Shown: positions 38,296 to 49,851 of the stretch, piece by piece | Layout: each line of letters opens with the position of its first letter | Position numbering within the stretch: the first letter of the stretch is position 1 | NCBI RefSeq assembly: GCF_000423485.1 | Contig: NZ_AUIB01000011.1 | Location: 1-57,043 of the forward strand | Direction: 5' to 3' | Origin: Propionimicrobium lymphophilum DSM 4903 | GTDB taxonomy: Bacteria > Actinomycetota > Actinomycetes > Propionibacteriales > Propionibacteriaceae | Length of the DNA stretch: 57,043 nt | The notes under the pieces: generated by a model | Told to the model about the DNA's origin: nothing | The model's database searches: none | Seen by the model: only the letters and a program-made list of their open reading frames with translations | Position numbers and translations under genes: made by a program

Positions 38296-40849
38296 CCCTA
38301 GCCTGCCCCTCGACGGTCTGCTGCAGCAGCTCAACCGTCTCGTCCAGCAGATCGACGCCCAACTGACGCGCGTGCCGAGTGATGTGCAGGACTAACCTGT
38401 CGGCCTCGACGTCGTTGCCGGCCAGATGCTCGGTCTTTAGCCGCAGCCCAAGCAAAAGCTCGTCTTCGGGGACGGCCAACAGACCCTTGGCAGCTGCCCA
38501 GCGGGCCGTTTCGATGTCGCCGTGTTCCAGAGCTAAACGCCCGAGACGAAGCCCCGTGTCGCGGATCATGCTGGCCATCGCCACTCGCAGGGGTTCCGCC
38601 CAACTCCACTGGCCTGGGGCCGCGTCCGCAAGCGGTGCTCCACGAACCAGCTCCAGCGCCCGCCTAAGGACGGTCTCGGAAGCGCGATCCACACCACCCA
38701 CCAGCATCGTCCTGAACTGTTCCCAGTCGGAAGAAACACCCGGGTGCAGACGGATGCGTCCCGAATACGCCTCTGGCAGGTACGGGTTACCTTCCTCGTC
38801 GGAGCCGAGCCAGCTGCGCAGCCTAGACATATTTGAGCGGCGGGTGCCCTCGGCGACCAGCAGCGACCTGGTCATCTGAGCCGCGCTGGCGCCCGGGTGC
38901 TCGAGCAGCCAGGCGCAGTATTCCTGGCACTGTTTGAGCGCCCTCGGGGGTATTTTTCCGCGAGCGGACTCTAGAGTGACAGGGCCGAGCATCAGAAGAA
39001 TCGGGTTGGAATTATTCACTTGTGCCTCCTGATCGCGCTCTGTCTGACCAGCTAGTTCGGTTGTTTCGCGGCCCCACCACTCGGCCTGCTCGTATTCGGT
39101 GCTCGACGACTTCTCGAAGATCTCCGCCAGCCCGCGTCGAGCGGGGGCGCTGACTAGTTCCGGCGAGAAGACCCTGCCACCTGGCATCTTTGCGGTGGCA
39201 TCGGCGACCTGGAACATCGGGTGCTCGTTGCTTGCTTCACAGACCAGCACGCCAAGAGCGCAGCGTCGCAGATCCTCGGCGGCTGGCAGGTTGGACGGCA
39301 TTTGTTCGAACACGTAAAGCCTTGGACGTAAAGAATCGGGCGACGAGGCTTCGCTTCGGCCTGCCAGATCGGCCATCAACATTCGATACGCCACCGCAGC
39401 ATCGGCGGTCTGCAAGCTGGGCTCGTCCATGGTCGATAGCCAATCGAAGCCGGAGCCCGCCGAAACTATGTCCGCGTCTGGCTCTTCGCTTGCTGCGACG
39501 TAGAGCACGATGCCGGTGGCGAACGCATTCGCCCGCTCGGCGTCGCCCGAGATGGAGGTGATTCCAGCGTCAAAGAAGTCGTAGCTGATGGGCTTAGAAT
39601 CGTCGGTCAGCTCGTGCCCGACATGTAGGCCATGCGCGTGGCTGGAAAGGATTCTCGCGGTTTCGTTGCACAGGCCACCGAGCGTCGAAATCGCGGATTC
39701 TAGCTCCCCTGCCGCATGTTCCGGGCGCCTGATTGCCCTGCCTAATGGTCGCTGCACCTGCTGGCGATTGCGACGACGATAGATTGCCGCAGAAAGCGTC
39801 GCTGCCAACGCCAAAGACACACCGGCCGAAGAACCGACAGCTGAGACGACGCTGGCCACGATCGGGCCAACGCCTAACTGGTTGGCAACATCGAGCCTCG
39901 GAGACTCAAGAGAAAGCGACTTTTCCACCCGTGTCGGGCACCGCACGACGTCGGCTAGGGCGACCAGGTCGTCGGGCACCTCTTCAGCCGGAAGCTCCGG
40001 CGTGGCCTCCTCAACAGGCGTGGAATTTTGTTCCGCAGACTCCAGAGCATCGACTTGCTGTGCGTCTGGGATGCTCAGGCGCCAACCAGGCTTGATCAAG
40101 GCTGGATCTTTGATCAGATCGCTGTTTGCTGCCAAGATCTGGGGCCACTTGCCGGGATCTCCGAGCTGCTCACCAGCGATCGACCACAGGCTGTCGCCCT
40201 TCTCTACCTCCACCTCGCTAGACCAGCTCTCCTCGGCATCCTGCACAGAAGCCAGCGATACGGCGTGAGTTTCGTGCGGGATCAGCAGACGAGTTCCCGC
40301 GTCCAAGACCTGAGTCGGAGAGCCCAAAACTGTGTCGTTTAGCTCGGCGATTTCGCGCCAGCGCATGCCGTCACCCAGATGCTCCTCGGCCAGGGTCCAA
40401 AGATCGTCCCCGGCTGAAGTGGTGTAGCTCAACAGCTCGTCGTTTCGCTGCGCTTCTTCTTGCGCATGATTCGTCGCAGAAACATCGGCCTGCTGAACTA
40501 TTGCCGGAGCCTCAGGAACGGAATTGACCGCCGACGCACCCAGTCCCAGCAAGGCGGTGACCAGCAGCGCGCTGGAGGAAGAGAACACCCGAAGGCCGGG
40601 CACGCTCAACCGAACCTGACCGGCGGTTAGTGCCGAGACGAACTCGAAAACCAAACTGAGGCAGGCAGCTGCCCACGCAAGCCAGGCGACGATGGTCAGC
40701 ACGCCGACCGCCAAGTCCGGCACCGAGGCGAAAGTCGGCTGCAGCGAGCCCAGCGCGTCGAGGCGGCCTATCCTAACGAGCATTACCGGGGCCACGAAGA
40801 CAATCGCGATCATCGCCAGTGCGGCCCCGAGGGCCTTCAGCATTCGCAT
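38282..40849 (-). CDS. Membrane protein with LysM repeats and BTAD-like transcriptional activator domain
   Basis: The 855-aa protein has hydrophobic N-terminal helices (about residues 8-25, 45-70, 90-107), two LysM domains (about 141-191, GDDLWTLAEEHLGDG; and 212-261, GDSLWSIAGEQLGDP) and a further membrane helix (about 330-352). A long intracellular part ends in a BTAD-like bundle (about 650-855: SRLRSWLGSDEEGN, RRALELVRGAPLAD). LysM domains bind peptidoglycan; BTAD is found in SARP activators. It is the last gene of the Tad operon and may link wall or pilus status to a cytoplasmic response. Overlap with the TadE-like gene is 13 bases. Confidence 0.85.
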   Translation of the reverse strand: MRMLKALGAALAMIAIVFVAPVMLVRIGRLDALGSLQPTFASVPDLAVGVLTIVAWLAWAAACLSLVFEFVSALTAGQVRLSVPGLRVFSSSSALLVTALLGLGASAVNSVPEAPAIVQQADVSATNHAQEEAQRNDELLSYTTSAGDDLWTLAEEHLGDGMRWREIAELNDTVLGSPTQVLDAGTRLLIPHETHAVSLASVQDAEESWSSEVEVEKGDSLWSIAGEQLGDPGKWPQILAANSDLIKDPALIKPGWRLSIPDAQQVDALESAEQNSTPVEEATPELPAEEVPDDLVALADVVRCPTRVEKSLSLESPRLDVANQLGVGPIVASVVSAVGSSAGVSLALAATLSAAIYRRRNRQQVQRPLGRAIRRPEHAAGELESAISTLGGLCNETARILSSHAHGLHVGHELTDDSKPISYDFFDAGITSISGDAERANAFATGIVLYVAASEEPDADIVSAGSGFDWLSTMDEPSLQTADAAVAYRMLMADLAGRSEASSPDSLRPRLYVFEQMPSNLPAAEDLRRCALGVLVCEASNEHPMFQVADATAKMPGGRVFSPELVSAPARRGLAEIFEKSSSTEYEQAEWWGRETTELAGQTERDQEAQVNNSNPILLMLGPVTLESARGKIPPRALKQCQEYCAWLLEHPGASAAQMTRSLLVAEGTRRSNMSRLRSWLGSDEEGNPYLPEAYSGRIRLHPGVSSDWEQFRTMLVGGVDRASETVLRRALELVRGAPLADAAPGQWSWAEPLRVAMASMIRDTGLRLGRLALEHGDIETARWAAAKGLLAVPEDELLLGLRLKTEHLAGNDVEADRLVLHITRHARQLGVDLLDETVELLQQTVEGQARARAI

Positions 40850-41232
40850 GTGCTACTCCTAAAACTGTCTATCTTTTCCCTTGCGGTCTGGGTCAGCGTC
40901 AGCCGAGGACCACCGACTTGAGTCATGTCGATCTGACAGGAGGCGCTCGCCCGCACAAACCCGTCCGCAGAATCCGTCCACACCTTCAGGTTCCGGCACG
41001 AAGAACCGGACGTCGCCAGGTCCGACTCCACCACCTGACGCACGCGGGGATCCACGCAGCTAGCGCACTGCCCCGAGGCCGCGCGGGCACCGGCCGAGAC
41101 GGCGTCGGCAAGCTGCGCCTTCGCCCAATAGAGCCTGGCCCCAATGATGATCAGACAGACCACAAGGAATATCGCAGGCAAGATCACTGCAGCCTCCACG
41201 CTGGCCATGCCCCTGATATCTTTGCTGTTCAT
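40837..41232 (-). CDS. TadE-like minor pseudopilin (second copy)
   Basis: The 131-aa protein starts MNSKDIRGMASVEAAVILPAIFLVVC: a short basic leader, a Gly/Met junction, Glu at +5 and one hydrophobic helix, as in TadE. The extracellular part has four cysteines. It is separated by one base from the preceding TadE-like gene. It should be processed by a TadV-type peptidase and join the pilus base or fibre. Confidence 0.8.
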   Translation of the reverse strand: MNSKDIRGMASVEAAVILPAIFLVVCLIIIGARLYWAKAQLADAVSAGARAASGQCASCVDPRVRQVVESDLATSGSSCRNLKVWTDSADGFVRASASCQIDMTQVGGPRLTLTQTAREKIDSFRSSTCEC

Positions 41233-41233
41233 C

Positions 41234-41587
41234 TCAAAATTCTTTCGGCCGGAAGGCCTGCGCTTCGACCCTAGAAAGTGGCCCTGGCAGCGGCGAATTC
41301 GTGGTGGCGATGAGCTCGAACCGAACGCTGGAGGGGTTTTCGTCGAACCTAATTTCGACGTCCTTCAGCCCAGCTCGGTCCGCCAACCGTTTGGCGACCT
41401 CGACGCCCTGACGGCAATCGCCATACACGGCAGCCGCGCGCTCGGCGCCGGCCATCGCTGCCTGCTGGGCCGCACTTTTTGCGTGCGCGTGCACCCCAGC
41501 GGCGATGGCAAGCAGGATTACGCCCAAGACCAACGGGGCGAGCACAGCCCAGCTGACCGATTGGCTCATCCCGCGTTCGTCGCCCAT
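41234..41587 (-). CDS. TadE-like/helicase-secretion-neighbourhood pseudopilin
   Basis: The 117-aa protein starts MGDERGMSQSVSWAVLAPLVLGVIL, a prepilin-like leader and a single helix without the usual Glu at +5. The following periplasmic-side part contains AAQQAAMAGAERAAAVYGDC, typical of TadE/secretion-neighbourhood proteins. The gene abuts the Flp-like gene (stop and ATG adjacent). Probably a minor pilin. Confidence 0.72.
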   Translation of the reverse strand: MGDERGMSQSVSWAVLAPLVLGVILLAIAAGVHAHAKSAAQQAAMAGAERAAAVYGDCRQGVEVAKRLADRAGLKDVEIRFDENPSSVRFELIATTNSPLPGPLSRVEAQAFRPKEF

Positions 41588-41791
41588 CTACCCCTCTGCT
41601 CCCAGCGTCGCCAGCTTGCCCTTCACGTAGACGCCGACGATTGCGATCACCGCGGCGGCCAACGCGACTGCACCCGTGAGCAGCACCGCGTTCTCCGTCG
41701 ACTGCGAGAGCCCTCGCTCGTCGCGCCTGACCGGAGCCTTCGCCTGAACGTAGAGCCCGATTGCCTTGTTCCTGAGCCTGATCAATTGCAT
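41588..41791 (-). CDS. Flp-type pilin-like small protein
   Basis: The 67-aa protein has a basic leader ending DERG, then LSQSTENAVLLTGAVALAAAVIAIVGVYVKGKL. Its size, Gly cleavage site and long helix fit a Flp pilin, but the Glu is at +6 and is followed by Asn instead of the usual Glu-Tyr at +5/+6. An AGAAGGA site precedes the ATG. It is most likely the major pilin. Confidence 0.7.
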   Translation of the reverse strand: MQLIRLRNKAIGLYVQAKAPVRRDERGLSQSTENAVLLTGAVALAAAVIAIVGVYVKGKLATLGAEG

Positions 41792-41904
41792 ATTTTCTTT
41801 TCCTTCTGCCGAGCCGCAAGCAGGATCTGCTGCACGCGGGCTATTTATTTTTCCGAATTAAAAATGTGGTTAGAGAGTTATCCACAGGGAACTTTTTTAC
41901 TTCC

Positions 41905-42789
41905 TCACTGCATGGCCATTCGTAAAAGTGGCGGGGTGATGAAGGCAAAGGCGAAAATCAGCACGGGCACGGACATCCAAAGCGTCATCCGCTCGCTGAC
42001 CGCATGCGCCTGTTCCTTCGCGCGGTTTAGGTGCTGAGTTCGCAGTTCCTTGGCGCGCTGGGCCAGGGTGTCGGCGATCGCGGCGCCCTGCTCGTCCAGG
42101 CGCATAATGTCGGCGACGTCCGAAAGCTGCGGCACACCCAGCGTCTCAGAAAGCCTTTCGAGATCCTGCCACGGCGAGCGCTGTTCCAGGCGGGCACGCG
42201 TCAGGCAAGCCTGCACCCGAACCAGCAGCGGAGCGGGCGAGATCTCCGCCGCCGCGGACAGCGCCTGCACCGCGGAACGATTCGCCAAGCGCTCCAAGAA
42301 AACCAGATCGATGTATGTATGGACGACTTCGGCAGCTGTCTGCGTCGTCTGGGTGAACTGCTGACGAAGCTGCAAAGTGGGCAGGAACCAGCCGGCAATC
42401 CCGCCGACCAGACCCGCGAACAGCGAAACGCCCAGCGCGGATGAGAACCCTCCGATCACCCCGACCACCATGGCCGGGAGCAGGAAACCGGCAAGCGCGA
42501 ACACCGTTTTGAGTAGAAAGAAGTCGCCAATCGAACGGCCCTGCAGACCCAGCAGCGCCATATTGGACTGCGAAAGCGGCACCGGCAACCGTCGATATAC
42601 CCACGCACCGAATCTCTCCAGCCGAGAGTTTTCGTCTGCCACTAAAACGGTGGTCGGCTGCGGGGCGGCCTCATTATTCCCCAGCAGTTCTAACGCATCG
42701 GACAACCGCAAGGCAGACGGGTAAAGCATGGCGAAGAAGCTCCACACACCGAGGCCCAGAGCAGCGCCGGCTAACAGTTGGACGATCAT
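41905..42789 (-). CDS. tadC: Tad pilus inner-membrane protein TadC
   Basis: The 294-aa type II secretion F-domain protein has membrane segments at both ends and in the middle. The conserved cytoplasmic part has VVHTYIDLVFLERLANRS and LGVPQLSDVADIMRLDEQGA. The ATG overlaps the tadB stop by four bases. It forms the platform with TadB for the ATPase TadA. A 113-base gap with T-rich sequence separates it from the pilin gene. Confidence 0.9.
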   Translation of the reverse strand: MIVQLLAGAALGLGVWSFFAMLYPSALRLSDALELLGNNEAAPQPTTVLVADENSRLERFGAWVYRRLPVPLSQSNMALLGLQGRSIGDFFLLKTVFALAGFLLPAMVVGVIGGFSSALGVSLFAGLVGGIAGWFLPTLQLRQQFTQTTQTAAEVVHTYIDLVFLERLANRSAVQALSAAAEISPAPLLVRVQACLTRARLEQRSPWQDLERLSETLGVPQLSDVADIMRLDEQGAAIADTLAQRAKELRTQHLNRAKEQAHAVSERMTLWMSVPVLIFAFAFITPPLLRMAMQ

Positions 42790-43607
42790 TGGTTCACCTG
42801 CAAGATTCGCTCGCGCTTTTGCGGCCTGGACATGCGCTGCAGCATCCGCAGCGAAAGCATGTAACAGACGAAGAAACCGATGGCCAGCACCTGCCCGATG
42901 GGAGTGGTGAAAGGCGCAAAATAAGACGGATTAATGACTACCCCGGCACCCAAAACGACGACCGTGATCATCGTCACCTGGCGAACGACGACCCTCGGCT
43001 TGGCCCGTTCCGCGTCGATCTCGCGGAGCGCCGCGAGCCTGTCAGAGACGCTGTCCGCTAGCGCGTCAAGCGTGCGGTGCGCGCCCAGGCCACCACGCTC
43101 AGAACACAGTATGCAGGCGGCGAGCACGGCATCGGCGTCTGTGGAGTCCCACTCGTCGGCGAGAGCCAGCAGCGATTCTCGAACGGACCAACGGCCGCGA
43201 AGCCGCGCGAGCGCTGTTGAAACACCTGACTTCAACATCTTCGGGCACTGAGCATAGGTGGCGCGCATGGCGTCCGGAATGGATTTGCCCGTGGCTACAG
43301 ACGCGGTCAGCAGCCGAACCCAGCGGTCTAACGCAGCTAATAACTGCACCTCGCGATTGGGTTTGGGCCGCAACAGATCGGGCAGAACCAGCCCGACTCC
43401 GGGGCCGACGATCAACGCGGGCAACCACCCGGTGACCAACGCAAACATGGCGCTAAGCGCGAGCACACCCCCTGTCCTAACGCTGATTTTGGGCAGGTTG
43501 AGCGGTTTAGAAACGATCCGACTTTTGCTGGAACGAGCGCCCACCACCACTACGAACGCGCCGAATAAAAACAGGAATGCCCCAAGGCCGGCGACCAGCG
43601 CATTCAC
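42786..43607 (-). CDS. tadB: Tad pilus inner-membrane protein TadB
   Basis: The 273-aa F-domain protein has N- and C-terminal membrane pairs and the core LLAALDRWVRLLTASVATGKSI. The start is GTG at 43607, overlapping the tadA stop (GTGA); the frame is open further upstream but only as a shadow of tadA. Later motifs include LGAHRTLDALADSVSDRLAA and the arginine-rich RAKPRVVVRQ. It is a platform partner of TadC. Confidence 0.88.
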   Translation of the reverse strand: MNALVAGLGAFLFLFGAFVVVVGARSSKSRIVSKPLNLPKISVRTGGVLALSAMFALVTGWLPALIVGPGVGLVLPDLLRPKPNREVQLLAALDRWVRLLTASVATGKSIPDAMRATYAQCPKMLKSGVSTALARLRGRWSVRESLLALADEWDSTDADAVLAACILCSERGGLGAHRTLDALADSVSDRLAALREIDAERAKPRVVVRQVTMITVVVLGAGVVINPSYFAPFTTPIGQVLAIGFFVCYMLSLRMLQRMSRPQKRERILQVNQ

Positions 43608-45043
43608 GCTTGCACCTCGTATCGGGACAGCTCGGCGAGCAGCTCGACCGGCGGATCGAAGAGCGCAGGACGCCCGTCGATGCCCGCCTGGTAGACCAGG
43701 TGCGTCACCGGGCGGCCATTCTCGATTGCGCCCGTCAACGCCCGCACCTCGGCCACGAATCGGCGGCGGGAGCCACCGCGCCAGGTGTCGTCGACGAGGT
43801 TGACGTGCACGAGCAGATGCAGGTTCAGTGCGATCTGCCGAAACGCCTGGTCTAGGCTCAACGCCGCACCGGATGCGACGCGCGTAGCTAGCCGGTCCAT
43901 CGTGGAGGAGGCCGAATGCGAATGCGTCGTGGACAGGCAACCCGTGCCGATCTGCATTGCTTCGAACATGGCGCCGGCCTCGCTGCCACGCACCTCACCG
44001 ATGATCAACCGGCTCAGGTTCTGCCGCAGCGCCTCCGGAACCAGCTCGGCGACGCTGTATTCGCCAAGCCGCCTGCCGTCCACTAGCTCTCCGAGCCCAG
44101 TTTTCGCCTGCATCGCGAGCATGTTCTTTCGTCCAGGCTGCAGATGCGTCAGCAACTCGTAGTCGGTCTCGATGGTGCCGAAGCGCTCGTTCGCGGGGAT
44201 CGCATCGATCAGGGCGCGCAGCAGCGTGGTTTTTCCGGCCCCTTGGTCGCCTGATATGACGATCGATTTGCGCGCGAGCACCGCCAGCCGCAGAAATTTG
44301 GCCAGGCTTGTCGGCATCATGTCGCGGGCGGCCAGCTCGTCGAGCGTGATGCTGGTGAGAATGTGGTGGCGGATCACGATCGACGGGCGGTAGCTGAGCC
44401 CGAACCCGACGGCGTGGATCCTGAACTGATCTGAGGTCTCCTTGCCAACGGCTACGGTCATCATGGGGTGGGCATCGTCGAAGGCGCGCGGCGGATTCGC
44501 GCTGGACCCGAAGAACCTGATGGCCTCCACGAGCTCCTCGTCGTTGTCGGCAACCGGCGGATGGTTGACGCGTCGCCCGTCGCTATACTGCACAACCACG
44601 GAGTCGTAGCCGTGAATCTCGATGTTTTCGGCATCCGGGATCTCGAACAGCGGCTGCATCCTGCCATAACCAAAAATGGCGTTCTCGACGGCATGCGCGT
44701 AGCGCCGCTCCAGCGCCAGCGGCCAAAGCTGCTGACCGCTGGTGCTCAGGTGCTCGGCGTAGGCGCGAACCACTTGACGGATTACGGCGCGGCCCATCAT
44801 CTGACGGTCGTCATCGTCGAGTTGCTCACCGGAGCCCCACGTCTCTAGGCGACGGCTGATCTTTTCCGACGCCTCTTTCCGTAGCTCCACAACCAGCTTC
44901 CAGTCGATACTGGCTCCGGCGTCAACCGTCAGCGTTCGCCGCGGTTGAACACTTGGCTGCGGCGCCGGCTCGACCTGCGACCTATCTAGCGTCGTCAGTG
45001 CAGTGCTCAGGTCTAATGCGGCCGCTCCCCGCTTGGCGTTCAT
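43604..45043 (-). CDS. tadA: Tad pilus assembly ATPase TadA (CpaF)
   Basis: The 479-aa secretion ATPase has Walker A GDQGAGKT (residues 265-272), Walker B LIIGEVRG (E350) and a His box TGCLSTTHSHSASS (367-380). The N-terminal 60 residues are extended and Pro-rich. ATGA overlaps with the tadZ-like gene upstream. It powers pilus assembly at the cytoplasmic membrane. Confidence 0.95.
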   Translation of the reverse strand: MNAKRGAAALDLSTALTTLDRSQVEPAPQPSVQPRRTLTVDAGASIDWKLVVELRKEASEKISRRLETWGSGEQLDDDDRQMMGRAVIRQVVRAYAEHLSTSGQQLWPLALERRYAHAVENAIFGYGRMQPLFEIPDAENIEIHGYDSVVVQYSDGRRVNHPPVADNDEELVEAIRFFGSSANPPRAFDDAHPMMTVAVGKETSDQFRIHAVGFGLSYRPSIVIRHHILTSITLDELAARDMMPTSLAKFLRLAVLARKSIVISGDQGAGKTTLLRALIDAIPANERFGTIETDYELLTHLQPGRKNMLAMQAKTGLGELVDGRRLGEYSVAELVPEALRQNLSRLIIGEVRGSEAGAMFEAMQIGTGCLSTTHSHSASSTMDRLATRVASGAALSLDQAFRQIALNLHLLVHVNLVDDTWRGGSRRRFVAEVRALTGAIENGRPVTHLVYQAGIDGRPALFDPPVELLAELSRYEVQA

Positions 45044-45819
45044 CGGGCCTCCATCTGCTCTGGACGAATCGTCAGCGCGCTAACCTCGAAGAGCTTTTCC
45101 ACCAGAAGTTGAAGCGATCTGCGATAGTTCCGCTGACCCAAAACAGCGGCCTTCGGGGCCTGATCCGACAGCCTCGCCGCGACGCTCGGCGCCCAAACCA
45201 CATCGCCGGCCACGGGAAGATCGAATTGGGCGGAAATCTCACGCCCCGAATACGGTCGCCCGGCGCCGATGAGGATAATGCCGAGCTCCCCTGCGGCTGA
45301 GTCGTACAAAGATTGCAGCGTAGGCAGCCATAGTTTCGCGCAAGCCAACGACGGCAGATTGCTGCGTGTAACTAAGTAACAGGCGTCGGCTGCGGCGAAT
45401 ATCTGCGCGGAAGAATTCGTGACATCTAGGCGTCCCAGGTCGAAAAATATGTCCGCGCCAGAATCGGAGAGCCGCTCCGCCTGGGAAAGTAGCGCGGGCA
45501 GCGCCGAAGAAAACAGCGCAGGCGCCTTCGGATTTCTGAAGCCCGGAACGAAAGAGGCATGCGTCACACCAGGAAGCGGTATTGCGATGGCGGAAAGCAG
45601 ATCGGCGGAAATCTCGCCCGACCGGACTGCCTCGGCGAAATCTCCAAGATCCGTGCTCGGTTCGGTTCGCCCTGCTAGCAGCCCGGCAAGCACGGACTGG
45701 CTGGGGTGCGGATCGGCGTCGATAACCATCACCGGCCTTGGCCAAGACAAAGCCAACCCGAGGGCGGTTGTGGTTACGCCGGGGCTACCACCCGCGCTGC
45801 AGAAGACGTAAACGCTCAT
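45040..45819 (-). CDS. TadZ/CpaE-like septum-site-type ATPase
   Basis: The 259-aa MinD-like protein has a P-loop GSPGVTTTALGLAL (residues 11-24) lacking the usual lysine, and the motif VMVIDADPHPSQSVLAG. TadZ proteins localise the pilus machine to the pole. The missing P-loop lysine suggests weak or no ATP hydrolysis, as reported for some TadZ. It overlaps both neighbours by four bases. Confidence 0.85.
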   Translation of the reverse strand: MSVYVFCSAGGSPGVTTTALGLALSWPRPVMVIDADPHPSQSVLAGLLAGRTEPSTDLGDFAEAVRSGEISADLLSAIAIPLPGVTHASFVPGFRNPKAPALFSSALPALLSQAERLSDSGADIFFDLGRLDVTNSSAQIFAAADACYLVTRSNLPSLACAKLWLPTLQSLYDSAAGELGIILIGAGRPYSGREISAQFDLPVAGDVVWAPSVAARLSDQAPKAAVLGQRNYRRSLQLLVEKLFEVSALTIRPEQMEAR

Positions 45820-46535
45820 GCGGCATCCGCCTGCCTGACCAGAGCCAGTCTGTCTGCAGCGGCCAAGGCCGCAACTACAGACGCGTTCTCGCTGCTGACG
45901 GTGACGTCGACTAATTTGGTCTGACCGTCGAGCACGCCGCTCTGGCTGACAACGTTTGCCGCGAATTCCTGCCCCGGGCCGCCGTCAGCAACCTCCACCA
46001 ATGTGACGCGGGCACCCGCCGGCAGATCCTTTGCCGGCAGCCTGCCAGTGGCAAGTTTGAGCCCGATCATGGCTGAGCCTGAGTCGACTTCCGCGTCGCC
46101 CACCGACTGCGGGGCGAGCAAGGAACCCGACGGAATATCGGTGCGCGCAATCTTCCCCACGAGGCTCTGCGCCTCAGCCTTCTCGACGACGGGCACTCCC
46201 ACTGCAGCCCCGACGCTCGTGCTGGCCAGATCGGGGCCCGAGATGACCTCGCCACGCTGAATGTTTCGAGTGGCGGAAACAACGTCACGAGTGTTGCCAT
46301 TGGCCGCGATAGCCCAGACCATAAGGAGCGCACCCAAAGCGCAGAAAAGAATGCCCGCAATTGCCAAACGAAAATTGCGTTTAGCCCTGGCAGGAGCGAC
46401 AGAATTAACCTTTCGGCCGCTAGAAACGGCGCTATGACTAACGTTGTCGGCTCCATTTGAACCCTTAAATTCGGCCATCCGCGCATGCGATTCGTCGCCG
46501 GAAAATGACTCGACAAAGCTAAGGGGATTTGCCAT
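45816..46535 (-). CDS. SAF-domain pilus assembly protein (CpaB/RcpC-like)
   Basis: The 239-aa protein has an N-terminal cytoplasmic part, one membrane helix (about residues 56-77) and an SAF domain (SATRNIQRGEVISGPDLA) as in CpaB/RcpC and FlgA. The ATG at 46535 is chosen for AGGAG eight bases upstream. It is the first gene of the Tad operon and probably acts outside the membrane in fibre assembly. Confidence 0.85.
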   Translation of the reverse strand: MANPLSFVESFSGDESHARMAEFKGSNGADNVSHSAVSSGRKVNSVAPARAKRNFRLAIAGILFCALGALLMVWAIAANGNTRDVVSATRNIQRGEVISGPDLASTSVGAAVGVPVVEKAEAQSLVGKIARTDIPSGSLLAPQSVGDAEVDSGSAMIGLKLATGRLPAKDLPAGARVTLVEVADGGPGQEFAANVVSQSGVLDGQTKLVDVTVSSENASVVAALAAADRLALVRQADAA

Positions 46536-46806
46536 CTGGTCTCCTGAAATTGGGGTGTGCAGAAATGCCAAAGGCCCGCTTATATTAACGAGATGAAATT
46601 TGGCCAAACCACAGTTATCAACGGGTTTTAAGTTCCCTAACTAAATTCCTGGGGATCCGCGATTAAGCCAAGAACAAGACTTAAGAAAGAGTTAATGCCT
46701 TAACCCACGCTTCAGGTATCTATTTGAAAAATTAGTTAATTCGTTAGCGATTTCATTAGATTCAGCCATGACACCCTGCTCTATTGGGGGAATAGAAAGG
46801 CCAAAC
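46536..46806. promoter_or_regulatory. Divergent intergenic region, Tad operon / PAS gene
   Basis: The 271-base stretch between opposite genes is A+T-rich and must hold both promoters. Candidate tracts are ATTAGTTAATTCGTTAG and TTAAGAAAGAGTTAATGCC. No clear consensus pair can be assigned by eye. AAAGG at 46796-46800 is the ribosome binding site of the PAS gene. Confidence 0.4.
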
Positions 46807-48159
46807 ATGTCGGAAACTTTCAGGTTCGTACCGGGAATGATCCTGCCCTCGGGAGAACAACACGAAGTCGGAGTTGACGAACTGTTTTTCTCCACGACCG
46901 ACGCTAAAGGCGTCATCGAAGAGGCGAACTCTGTATTCGTCCGGCTATCGCATTGGCCCAGAGAACAGCTGATCGGCGCAGCACACAACATCATTCGTCA
47001 CCAGATGATGCCCGGTGGCGCGTTCAGGCTGATGTGGCAGACGCTAGAGTCTGGACGCCCGTTCGCGGCATACGTCCACAACCTTGCCAATAACGGCAGC
47101 CGCTACGACGTGTTCGCCACCATCACCCCGCTCGACGATGGCTATCTTTCCGTCCGCACCCGCCCGATGTGCCCGGTGCCGTTCGGTGCCGCTGAGCAGA
47201 TCTATAAAGAGTCACTAGCAGTGGAGATGATCGCGAAGGCGGACGGAGCGAACCGTCACGAGGCCGCGACGGTGGGCGCGGAAAAGCTCGCTGAGCTGCT
47301 CAACGCGGCAGGTTTCAACAGCTACGAAGACTTCATGCTCGAGACGCTGCCCGCCGAGATCGAGGCTCGCGAGAAAGCTGGCCACGTCATGCCCGAGTGC
47401 AACGCCGAGGGCGTCTACGGCGAGATGCTGCAGACAGTCGGCCAGCTGCACCAGCAGCTCGGCGTCGCGATGTCCGATCTGCAGAATCTGAAGGATCAGT
47501 CGACGCAGCTACAGGAAGCGTCCGACGTGCTGCGCGGCATCCTCGAAGCAACCAACGAGGTGTCCGAGGCCGTCAACCAGCTGCCTTCGGACTCCATCGA
47601 AAAGCGCACGCTGACCATGCCGTTGACGCTGTGGAGCTCCATGGATGCGGAGATTCGCGGCCTAACCGACGAGCTGACCGAAACGCTCAAAGAGACGTCG
47701 TCGACCGCAAGCCACACGCGCTTCCGAATCGCTCTGGCCAGGCTGCACGCCACCATGATCGGAAACTTTGTCGCGGAACTGGCGACGGATCCGGCAGCCA
47801 GCGAGATCACCTCGAACATCGGGCTGCTCACCCGAGCCATTTCGCAGGCCATTCAAGAGCTCAACGAGCAGGCGAGCAGCTACTCGCAACAGTCCAAGAA
47901 GGCAACCGACAACGCCCGTCAGGTGGCTGGTCTGTTGCAGATGCTCGTCGACCTGCTGGGTTCTTGGGTTGCCGGCAACGAGGGCCGCGAGCTGCCCGCC
48001 GAGGTGGCGGATATCGCACCGAAGATTTCCGAGCAGGTTGAACGCTCCAAGCAGGTCATCGAAAAGCTGGAGTTCATCTCCGGGCCCAGCGAACTGCCGG
48101 ACGCCGACCAGATGAACCAGACCGTCGAGGCGATGCGTCAGATCGGGAGCCAGTTCTAG
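46807..48159 (+). CDS. Soluble Aer-like PAS-domain protein
   Basis: The 450-aa protein begins with a PAS domain (about residues 25-120) that carries the Aer-like block HNIIRHQMMPGGAFRLMW, followed by the conserved Gly-Arg-Pro and Asn-Gly positions. In Aer this region binds FAD and senses redox state. There is no membrane anchor, HAMP or chemoreceptor domain. The rest (130-450) is helical with heptad-like stretches. The ATG at 46807 follows AAAGG by six bases. It diverges from the Tad operon, so redox control of pilus activity is an attractive but unproven idea. Confidence 0.82.
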   Translation: MSETFRFVPGMILPSGEQHEVGVDELFFSTTDAKGVIEEANSVFVRLSHWPREQLIGAAHNIIRHQMMPGGAFRLMWQTLESGRPFAAYVHNLANNGSRYDVFATITPLDDGYLSVRTRPMCPVPFGAAEQIYKESLAVEMIAKADGANRHEAATVGAEKLAELLNAAGFNSYEDFMLETLPAEIEAREKAGHVMPECNAEGVYGEMLQTVGQLHQQLGVAMSDLQNLKDQSTQLQEASDVLRGILEATNEVSEAVNQLPSDSIEKRTLTMPLTLWSSMDAEIRGLTDELTETLKETSSTASHTRFRIALARLHATMIGNFVAELATDPAASEITSNIGLLTRAISQAIQELNEQASSYSQQSKKATDNARQVAGLLQMLVDLLGSWVAGNEGRELPAEVADIAPKISEQVERSKQVIEKLEFISGPSELPDADQMNQTVEAMRQIGSQF

Positions 48160-48162
48160 ACC

Positions 48163-49851
48163 TTAGAAGAGTCCGACGATTCGCCCATCCGGGGTGATGT
48201 CCATCTTCTCTGCGGCCGGATGAGTGCCCAGGCCGGGCATGGTCTGCATGGCTCCCGCCAGGGCGTACACGTAACCGGCGCCCGCCGCCAGGCGCACCTC
48301 GCGGATAGGTAGCGTCCAGCCCGTCGGTGCGCCGCGATCGGCCGGGTCTGCGGTGGTGGACAGGTGGGTCTTCGCGATCAGGACCGGCAGCTTTCCGAAA
48401 CCTAGCTCGGTGAACCTGGCCAGCTGTTTGGCGGCCGCTGGCTCGATCTTGACGCCGTCAGCGCCGTACACCTTCGTCGCGATTGAATTGATCTTGTCTT
48501 CCAGAGAGTCCTCGGGCTCGTAGCTGAAGTGCAGGTCTGTGGCCTGATCGGCTGCCTCGACGACCGCCTTCGCCAGCTCCTGAGCACCCTCGCCGCCGTC
48601 GGCGACGTGCGTCGAAACCACGCACGCCACGCCCTTGCTGGCGGCGAAATCCTTGATGACCTGGTGTTCGCTTTCGTGATCGTCAGGGAACGCGTTGATT
48701 GCCACCACCGCGGGCACGCCGGATTTGCGGACGATGTCCAGGTGGTGAGCCAGGTTTGATAGGCCGGCCTCGACGTCCGCGCTATTCTCCTCCAGCAGCT
48801 CGGGCGGCAGCGGCTTGCCGGCGACAACCTTGTGGCGTCCGGAGTGCAGTTTCAGCGCGCGGACCGTAACCACGATCACGGCAGCATCCGGAACCAGACC
48901 GGAGGTGGCGCACTTGACGTTGACGAAACGCTCGTAACCCAGATCCGCTCCGAAGCCGGCCTCCGTAACAACGAAGTCGGTGTTTGCTAGGGCAAACTTG
49001 TCAGCGATGATCGAGCTGTTCCCGGTGGCTATGTTGCCGAACGGGCCGCAGTGAATCAGCGCGGCCTGGCCCTCGAGCGTCTGCAACAGATTGGGTCGTA
49101 GCGCGTCGCGCAGCAGAACAGCCATGGCTCCTGCGGCCTTTAGGTCCTCGGCCGTGACGGGCTCGCCTGAGGTGTTGAAGCCGACGACGATTCGCCCGAG
49201 CCGGGCGCGCAGATCGGGAAGATCCGCAGATTGTGCGACGATCGTCATGATTTCGCTGGCCGCGGTGATGTCGAAACGGGATTGGCGGGGCACGCCGTCG
49301 ACCTTTCGGCCGAGCCCTACGACGATGTTACGCAGCGCGCGATCGTTCATGTCCAGCACTCGTCCGCAGGTAATGGAGTGCGGCTCGATGTCCAGTTTGT
49401 TGCCGTGCTGCAGGTGGTTGTCAACCATTGCGGCCAGCAGGTTGTGCGCGGCGGTGATGGCGTGGAAATCTCCTGTCAGGTGCAGGTTGAGGGTCTCCAT
49501 CGGCACGACCTGCGAGTAGCCCGCGCCGGCTGCACCGCCCTTGATGCCGAAGACCGGCCCGAGCGAAGGCTGACGCAGCGTCGCGACGACCTTTTTGCCC
49601 AGTTTGCCCAAGCCCTGAACCAGGCCGATGGCGGTGGTTGTCTTGCCCTCGCCCAGCGGCGTCGGGGTGACGGCGGTCACTACGACGTATTTTCCGCGCT
49701 GGCTACCAGCCTCGCGAAGTTTCGCGGGTTCGATCTTGGCAGCGTAGTGACCGAAGGGTTCGAGGTCGGTTGGGCTGAGACTCAGCTGCTCGCCGATCTC
49801 TGTGAGGGGACGAAGTTTTGCGGATTGTGCTATTTCAAGATCGCTGGCCAT
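48163..49851 (-). CDS. fhs: Formate-tetrahydrofolate ligase
   Basis: The 562-aa enzyme makes 10-formyltetrahydrofolate from formate, ATP and tetrahydrofolate. The P-loop TPLGEGKTTTAIGLVQG and the segments PSLGPVFGIKGGAAGAGY and FHAITAAHNLL are characteristic, and the length matches the family. It converges on the PAS gene with a three-base gap. It feeds one-carbon metabolism. Confidence 0.97.
   Translation of the reverse strand: MASDLEIAQSAKLRPLTEIGEQLSLSPTDLEPFGHYAAKIEPAKLREAGSQRGKYVVVTAVTPTPLGEGKTTTAIGLVQGLGKLGKKVVATLRQPSLGPVFGIKGGAAGAGYSQVVPMETLNLHLTGDFHAITAAHNLLAAMVDNHLQHGNKLDIEPHSITCGRVLDMNDRALRNIVVGLGRKVDGVPRQSRFDITAASEIMTIVAQSADLPDLRARLGRIVVGFNTSGEPVTAEDLKAAGAMAVLLRDALRPNLLQTLEGQAALIHCGPFGNIATGNSSIIADKFALANTDFVVTEAGFGADLGYERFVNVKCATSGLVPDAAVIVVTVRALKLHSGRHKVVAGKPLPPELLEENSADVEAGLSNLAHHLDIVRKSGVPAVVAINAFPDDHESEHQVIKDFAASKGVACVVSTHVADGGEGAQELAKAVVEAADQATDLHFSYEPEDSLEDKINSIATKVYGADGVKIEPAAAKQLARFTELGFGKLPVLIAKTHLSTTADPADRGAPTGWTLPIREVRLAAGAGYVYALAGAMQTMPGLGTHPAAEKMDITPDGRIVGLF

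Follow-up and report, generated by a model that had tools for sequence, protein, structure and literature searches.

The PASX Locus

The window, i.e., the whole stretch of 57,043 nucleotides of Propionimicrobium lymphophilum DSM 4903 that was analysed, carries on its forward strand a full-length open reading frame (46807..48159; ATG at 46807, TAG at 48159) for a protein of 450 aa. According to the reading frame, the alignment and the structure model, this protein combines an Aer-like PAS domain with a helical rod, and we coined the label PASX for it in the present analysis. In our own reading of the sequence, the ATG at 46807 would be the start codon, a GAAAGG lying 6 nt before it, while the in-frame ATG at 46768 is devoid of such a site.

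The facing gene, on the reverse strand, is cpaB (45816..46535; SAF domain in Pfam), the first gene of a Tad operon. Its start is probably the ATG at 46535, with AGGAG upstream, rather than the TTG at 46607, and this re-reading would leave a divergent intergenic region of 271 bp (46536..46806), in which a consensus scan recovered no sigma-70-like promoter. The rest of the operon (40837..45819, reverse strand), identified from Pfam and from gene place and considered here, like cpaB, as context only, comprises a gene in the tadZ position, tadA, tadB, tadC and two tadE genes. Since Pfam matches above cut-off (SAF, T2SSE, two T2SSF and two TadE) identify the Tad families, the divergent arrangement described in an earlier note on this DNA holds; the gene in the tadZ position, for which Pfam gave no family match above cut-off, is named from its place only. 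On the 3' side, PASX is followed by a convergent gene ending at 48163, which we take to be fhs. Flanked by this convergent gene downstream and by the facing cpaB upstream, PASX is apparently a single-gene unit.

PAS Domain and Predicted FAD Pocket

No Pfam or NCBIfam model reached its cut-off for PASX: the PAS families listed in Pfam were all below their gathering score, and a NifL identity suggested by NCBIfam was rejected (21.8 bits vs. a cut-off of 242), the match being to the PAS only. In a phmmer search of the PDB, residues 23–134 matched the PAS domain of E. coli Aer (8dik, E 2.9e-18), followed by full-length Aer (31cj, E 3.4e-16); MmoS (3ewk) was also matched, and NifL weakly. The model of the whole protein (pLDDT 93.0, pTM 0.90) leads to the same place, with 8dik at rank 1 in Foldseek (TMt 0.89) and a superposition of the PAS domain (residues 16–118; 46852..47160, forward strand) on 8dik with an rmsd of 1.1 over 122 residues (Z 18.0), which makes it the closest solved structure.

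In Aer, as described in the available text of PMC9668731, the flavin is contacted by H53 through stacking and by N85 through a hydrogen bond, with R115 near its N5; R57 binds the phosphates, the adenine stacks with W70, and M69 lines the FAD pocket. The substitution S28G stabilises flavin binding, and the redox potential is low, at about -290 mV. Based on the 8dik alignment, H53, R57, W70, N85 and R115 correspond to H60, R64, W77, N92 and R117 of PASX, all five identical in the 65 rows of our alignment (window plus 64 relatives). M69 corresponds to M76 (Met in 60/65 rows) and position 28 to G35 (Gly in 65/65 rows), so that the putative pocket, defined from the model, the alignment and PMC9668731, consists of G35, H60, R64, M76, W77, N92 and R117. 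The Aer FAD-region block that had been noticed in the sequence (HNIIRHQMMP, residues 60–69, and AFRLMW, residues 72–77) is thus borne out by the 8dik match, the superposition and the pocket residues. Owing to the identical Aer contact residues and to the modelled fold, PASX likely binds FAD, although Aer R57-H58-P59-D60 reads R-H-Q-M in PASX, the position of D60 being variable among the 65 rows.

Adaptor and Helical Rod

Downstream of the PAS domain, residues 123 to 447 are modelled as helices joined by short loops. Together with the model and the fold searches, the 65-row alignment delimits two parts: a predicted three-helix adaptor (residues 123–190; 47173..47376, forward strand), in which Y133, E140 and E184 are identical in 65/65 rows, and a predicted four-helix rod (47410..48147, forward strand; helices 202–257, 264–327, 333–390, 398–424 and 433–447). 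When folded alone, the C-terminal part yields the same helices (pLDDT 92.2, pTM 0.83), in agreement with the roughly 320 helical residues reported earlier. The maximum Kyte–Doolittle mean over 19 residues is only 1.25, and no membrane helix is therefore indicated, while Pfam recovered neither HAMP nor MCPsignal in PASX at E <= 1, nor any DNA-binding family. The statement that no anchor, HAMP or methyl-accepting domain follows the PAS is accordingly upheld.

The rod is hard to place among known folds. C-terminal Pfam matches to DUF948, CheZ, gasdermin and ATG17, all below the gathering score, look like coiled-coil noise and were rejected. With the C-terminal part alone, Foldseek gave no match at E <= 0.001, and the best rows of VIA-align were designed four-helix proteins (Z 14–16). 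A kinship to the periplasmic bundles of McpZ, PilJ and TorS (Z 9–12; 13.5 for McpZ with the whole-protein search) was not retained, as these scores may merely reflect a common helix arrangement. In the PDB, the rod thus has generic helical bundles but no informative structural relative. Across Actinomycetota, this C-terminus is conserved together with the PAS domain, which argues against PASX being a decayed chemoreceptor, and a rod of this kind would most naturally act through protein contact.

PASX has in common with Aer (8dik, 31cj) the PAS fold and the FAD-contact residues, but it lacks the membrane anchor, the HAMP and the MCP domain and carries a three-helix adaptor plus a four-helix rod instead; neither MCP nor CheW is matched in its genome. 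MmoS (3ewk) and NifL (2gj3), which act through other output domains, are similar in their FAD-PAS sensing, but PASX ends in a rod. MmoS also has the H, N and R residues that Aer has in its pocket (PMC9668731, available text). CetB of Campylobacter jejuni likewise bears an Aer-like PAS on a separate protein without HAMP or signalling domains; as far as the consulted part of PMC2628428 goes, it is a PAS protein of 19.3 kDa, for which the receptor CetA is the proposed signalling route. In contrast, PASX (450 aa, with its rod) runs on for about 330 more residues, and no MCP match occurs in its genome.

Taxonomic Distribution

Among the 198 genomes of our Propionibacteriaceae set (which includes Cutibacterium modestum and Raineyella antarctica), 53 match PASX or its PAS, 17 of the places listed being PAS-only. 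A single-sequence scan of genome contigs found no relatives, whereas an alignment-based scan found 252, of which the best 80 were kept, corresponding to 79 loci. Among these relatives are carriers from Actinomyces, Corynebacterium, Cutibacterium, Arcanobacterium, Cellulomonas, Streptosporangium, Amycolatopsis and termite-gut MAGs. Because the 79 loci were picked by their likeness to the window protein, its clade is over-represented in the context counts; moreover, these loci overlap in genomes with the Propionibacteriaceae loci, and several loci end at contig ends. In the Cellulomonas family, matches occur in 35/150 genomes and are often short. A class-wide scan with a model of the C-terminal part recovered 4/296 genomes (window included, one marginal), and the family is thus patchy, as far as this thin sample goes.

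In a plasmid collection, 2247 records matched, most of the 25 listed spanning little beyond the PAS, and a single one covered 80% of the query: a 415-kb Actinomyces oris plasmid, in which the relative (L220:4977-6341) is annotated ‘chemotaxis protein’, a name probably carried over from Aer. Outside Actinobacteria, three alphaproteobacterial relatives of 405–412 aa (e.g., WP_013069361.1) share with PASX a PAS, an adaptor and a similarly long C-terminus, but they are only 23–28% identical to the window protein, their C-terminus is poorly aligned and their gene contexts differ.

Clustering of the neighbouring ORFs brought out, outside the type IV pilus group described below, only lineage-specific neighbours among the clusters listed; it was not used for counts because the longest-ORF rule also took antisense frames. 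In 11 Corynebacterium loci (L106, L109, L111, L112, L114, L116, L119, L121, L136, L140 and L143), guaB lies at most about 1.2 kb from PASX, in most of them with guaA adjoining and groEL about 5 kb away, while three others (L099, L103 and L147) are without this neighbourhood. Both groEL and guaB adjoin PASX in Propionicicella (L036/L108) and lie near it in Propioniciclava (L054/L110), so that the guaB/groEL neighbourhood is perhaps the ancestral slot of PASX. In one propionibacterial genus (L060, L061 and L062), there are divergent pairs of PASX paralogues, the copies being 37–38% and 29–31% identical to the window protein.

Chemotaxis and Tad Genes

The earlier note had seen no chemotaxis genes in the window, and a genome-wide search for two families came out likewise, with 0 matches to MCP (PF00015) and 0 to CheW (PF01584). 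MCP matches are absent from 22/24 PASX genomes and CheW matches from 24/27 (window included), some of these genomes being incomplete MAGs. On the basis of these absences, chemotaxis is not the usual setting of PASX. The CheW carriers are Cellulomonas sp. IC4_254 (G515, type IV pilus type), a Kineosporiaceae MAG (G516, PASX alone) and G623 (type IV pilus type, outside the MCP search), the first two having 15 and 16 MCP matches, respectively. In Rhodobacter sp. CZR27 (L218:4965-8776), the alphaproteobacterial PASX-like gene adjoins cheW and an MCP gene. Given these neighbours and matches, a tie to chemotaxis is possible in Rhodobacter sp. CZR27, G515 and G516.

The survey for a conserved tad neighbourhood that the earlier note had called for was carried out by phmmer with the Tad proteins of the window, over 40 Propionibacteriaceae neighbourhoods, the 79 wider ones (best 80 of 252 relatives) and genome-wide places, some of the neighbourhoods ending early at contig ends. 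No such conservation emerged: the window TadA is no neighbour of PASX in any of the 40 family loci or of the 79 wider loci (0/40 and 0/79), and the proposed link to Tad pili is not supported. Seven weak matches to the window TadA (22–27 bits) in the 79-locus set were rejected as PilT, four of the sequences having been inspected and the rest assigned by best match; those from termite-gut MAGs are presumed to be PilT from their motifs and place. Co-occurrence of TadA and PASX within the family is little informative, since some match to the window TadA can be found in 196/198 genomes (about 146 below 1e-100). When PASX and the best TadA are on one contig (G022, G198, G112, G109, G168, G155 and G100), they are at least 320 kb apart, both ways round the contig, for the PASX places listed and the best TadA places.

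A single weak TadE match (17 bits) lies ~7 kb from PASX in L045/L085, and was not taken as linkage. Likewise, among 20 Cellulomonadaceae loci, a tadA-like gene lies 5–7 kb away in two that encode short Aer-PAS proteins (L215 and L216), and pilT about 5.5 kb away in L209 and L211, neither of which was considered as linkage. The PASX gene beside tad in the window is a single case, picked by eye, and this position is most likely incidental.

Type IV Pilus Operon of Another Clade

In 12 loci from Cellulomonas and relatives and from termite-gut ‘Bifidobacteriaceae’ MAGs, PASX lies within a type IV pilus operon, which was traced as far as the contigs reach. Ten of these are among the 79 loci (best 80 of 252 relatives; L130, L133, L134, L135, L137, L138, L139, L141, L144 and L146) and two among 20 additional loci of the Cellulomonas family (L197 and L200); all counts are of loci rather than independent genomes, L134 and L141 stemming from one MAG, as do L123 and L135. 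The fullest order is pilD-pilM-pilN-...-kinase-like-roadblock-DUF742-GTPase-PASX-pilB-pilT-pilC, with pil names assigned by homology and order. Pfam recovered the four parts of a conservon in L144 (HATPase_c; Robl_LC7; DUF742; ATP_bind_1, with Ras weakly), while the genes upstream of the GTPase are off contig in L133. PASX is joined to both neighbours in each of the 12 loci: it has an in-frame start inside the end of the GTPase gene, and its stop codon shares an RTGA with the start of pilB, the gene for the type IV pilus extension ATPase. The end of pilB is off contig in L135 and L139.

In a midpoint-rooted tree of 73 proteins (15 of the 79 loci, including L135, L139 and L141, being outside alignment A3 and the tree), nine operon rows fall inside a group of 11 (SH-aLRT 94), along with two non-operon rows. 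For the 9/12 loci placed, the operon label requires 2 changes vs. a mean of 8.6 after shuffling. The window belongs to a separate group of 32 rows (support 99) composed of Propionibacteriaceae, Actinomycetaceae and Corynebacteriaceae, none of which has the operon, and even on the operon side of the tree only 9/22 rows have it. For these reasons, the pilus wiring is not simply transferable to the window. Among carriers of the operon, G539 has no CheW, and G525 and G526 have neither MCP nor CheW, which suggests that the GTPase/PASX/pilB operon is independent of chemotaxis genes. No roadblock match was found in the window genome, nor in 15 of the 30 PASX genomes searched; encoding with roadblock, DUF742 and Ras-like GTPase genes is thus observed in type IV pilus-clade relatives only.

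Sensor-type proteins whose genes accompany those for kinase-like, roadblock, DUF742 and GTPase proteins are already known: in the consulted part of PMC13343842, CvnF (GAF) and CvnE (P450) accompany CvnA kinases without sensor domain, and CvnF8 (GAF) stimulates the kinase CvnA8. PASX of the type IV pilus clade resembles them in this respect, but it is an Aer-PAS protein located between the GTPase and pilB there, and is encoded without them elsewhere. In Myxococcus, type IV pili are described as controlled by the Ras-like GTPase MglA, and gene order alone would fit PASX, between the GTPase and PilB, being a redox input to an MglA-like switch. Among the literature matches listed, titles and abstract starts contained no report of an Aer-like/conservon/pilus link.

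Shorter Aer-PAS proteins show a context of their own. At the 17 PAS-only places of Propionibacteriaceae, a roadblock gene precedes on the same strand in 17/17, with 168–278 bp between the matched domains, and a phosphonate-binding-like protein adjoins the PAS gene in the five loci inspected (L068–L072; PF12974 in L068), hence a roadblock/Aer-PAS/PhnD-like cassette in this family. The short Aer-PAS proteins of the Cellulomonas family (L207–L216) have no roadblock neighbour according to phmmer.

Functional Interpretation

Altogether, we favour, with moderate confidence, the reading of PASX as a cytoplasmic, Aer-like sensor of flavin redox, and with it of energy state, which operates outside chemotaxis and whose rod acts on a partner protein, its adjacency to tad being incidental. 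To judge from the contact residues and the modelled fold, its PAS domain would hold FAD in an Aer-like pocket; a redox change of the flavin would then shift the PAS relative to the three-helix adaptor, thereby altering the four-helix rod, which would serve as an output arm touching the partner. In the type IV pilus clade, this partner would most likely be the Ras-like GTPase module of the conservon and/or PilB, since the PASX gene overlaps the genes for both. Only the notion of a soluble redox sensor with a protein partner can be carried over to the window, the member of which falls in an orphan clade. Of what had originally been proposed, the soluble, Aer-type redox sensor without chemoreceptor parts stands, and FAD binding is probable from sequence and model. 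The broader hunch of a redox sensor for pili gains indirect support, though for another pilus type (conservon GTPase-PASX-pilB) and not for Tad.

That PASX regulates the adjacent Tad pilus in response to redox is very unlikely. The divergence from cpaB across 271 bp, the relatives of another clade within a type IV pilus operon and the weak matches of PilT sequences to the window TadA, Tad and type IV pilus motors being related, would all speak for it, but TadA is absent beside PASX in 40/40 and 79/79 neighbourhoods of relatives, 16 of the 24 named carriers are without a TadA match better than 1e-40, and PASX matches no DNA-binding family. Even less credence can be given to a degenerate chemoreceptor still plugged into an unrecognised chemosensory array: against the Aer PAS, the relative annotated ‘chemotaxis protein’ and the alphaproteobacterial relative adjoining cheW and an MCP gene stand a window genome without MCP or CheW match, the same absences in 22/24 and 24/27 genomes, and a C-terminus conserved along its length that has no MCPsignal match.

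A PAS-type accessory input of conservons, the G-protein systems of actinobacteria, in general, analogous to CvnF/CvnE, is an unlikely but less remote role for PASX. The operon with conservon parts in another clade, the short Aer-like PAS proteins directly 3' of a roadblock gene (17/17) and the stimulation of its CvnA kinase by CvnF8 (PMC13343842, consulted part) are in line with it, but no roadblock match occurs in 15/30 PASX genomes searched, nor in the window genome, where this role is therefore excluded. Beyond the preferred reading of a soluble sensor with a protein partner, PASX could speculatively, and with poor odds, be a general redox input for the type IV filament machines of Actinomycetota that replaces a chemosensory array, the Aer PAS reading the flavin state of the respiratory chain and the rod relaying it to a Ras-like GTPase switch and an extension motor. 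This motor would be PilB in the type IV pilus clade; in lineages where PASX is alone, as in the window, kinship would point to TadA or another T2SSE protein. Were this so, pili would be extended according to energy state, with no Che protein involved.

Aer-type PAS domains are mainly known from their role as chemotaxis inputs. They are also treated as such in an aerotaxis review, in the part consulted (PMC13401364). In the PASX family, Aer-type sensing takes a variant form that is uncoupled from chemotaxis and, in another clade, coupled to a GTPase/pilus context. This actinobacterial family, patchy over many genera, retains the flavin pocket of Aer, and its members terminate in a helical rod without a name. 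The overlapping GTPase-PASX-pilB genes raise a testable question, namely whether type IV pili may be steered by redox through a G-protein switch instead of a chemosensory array.
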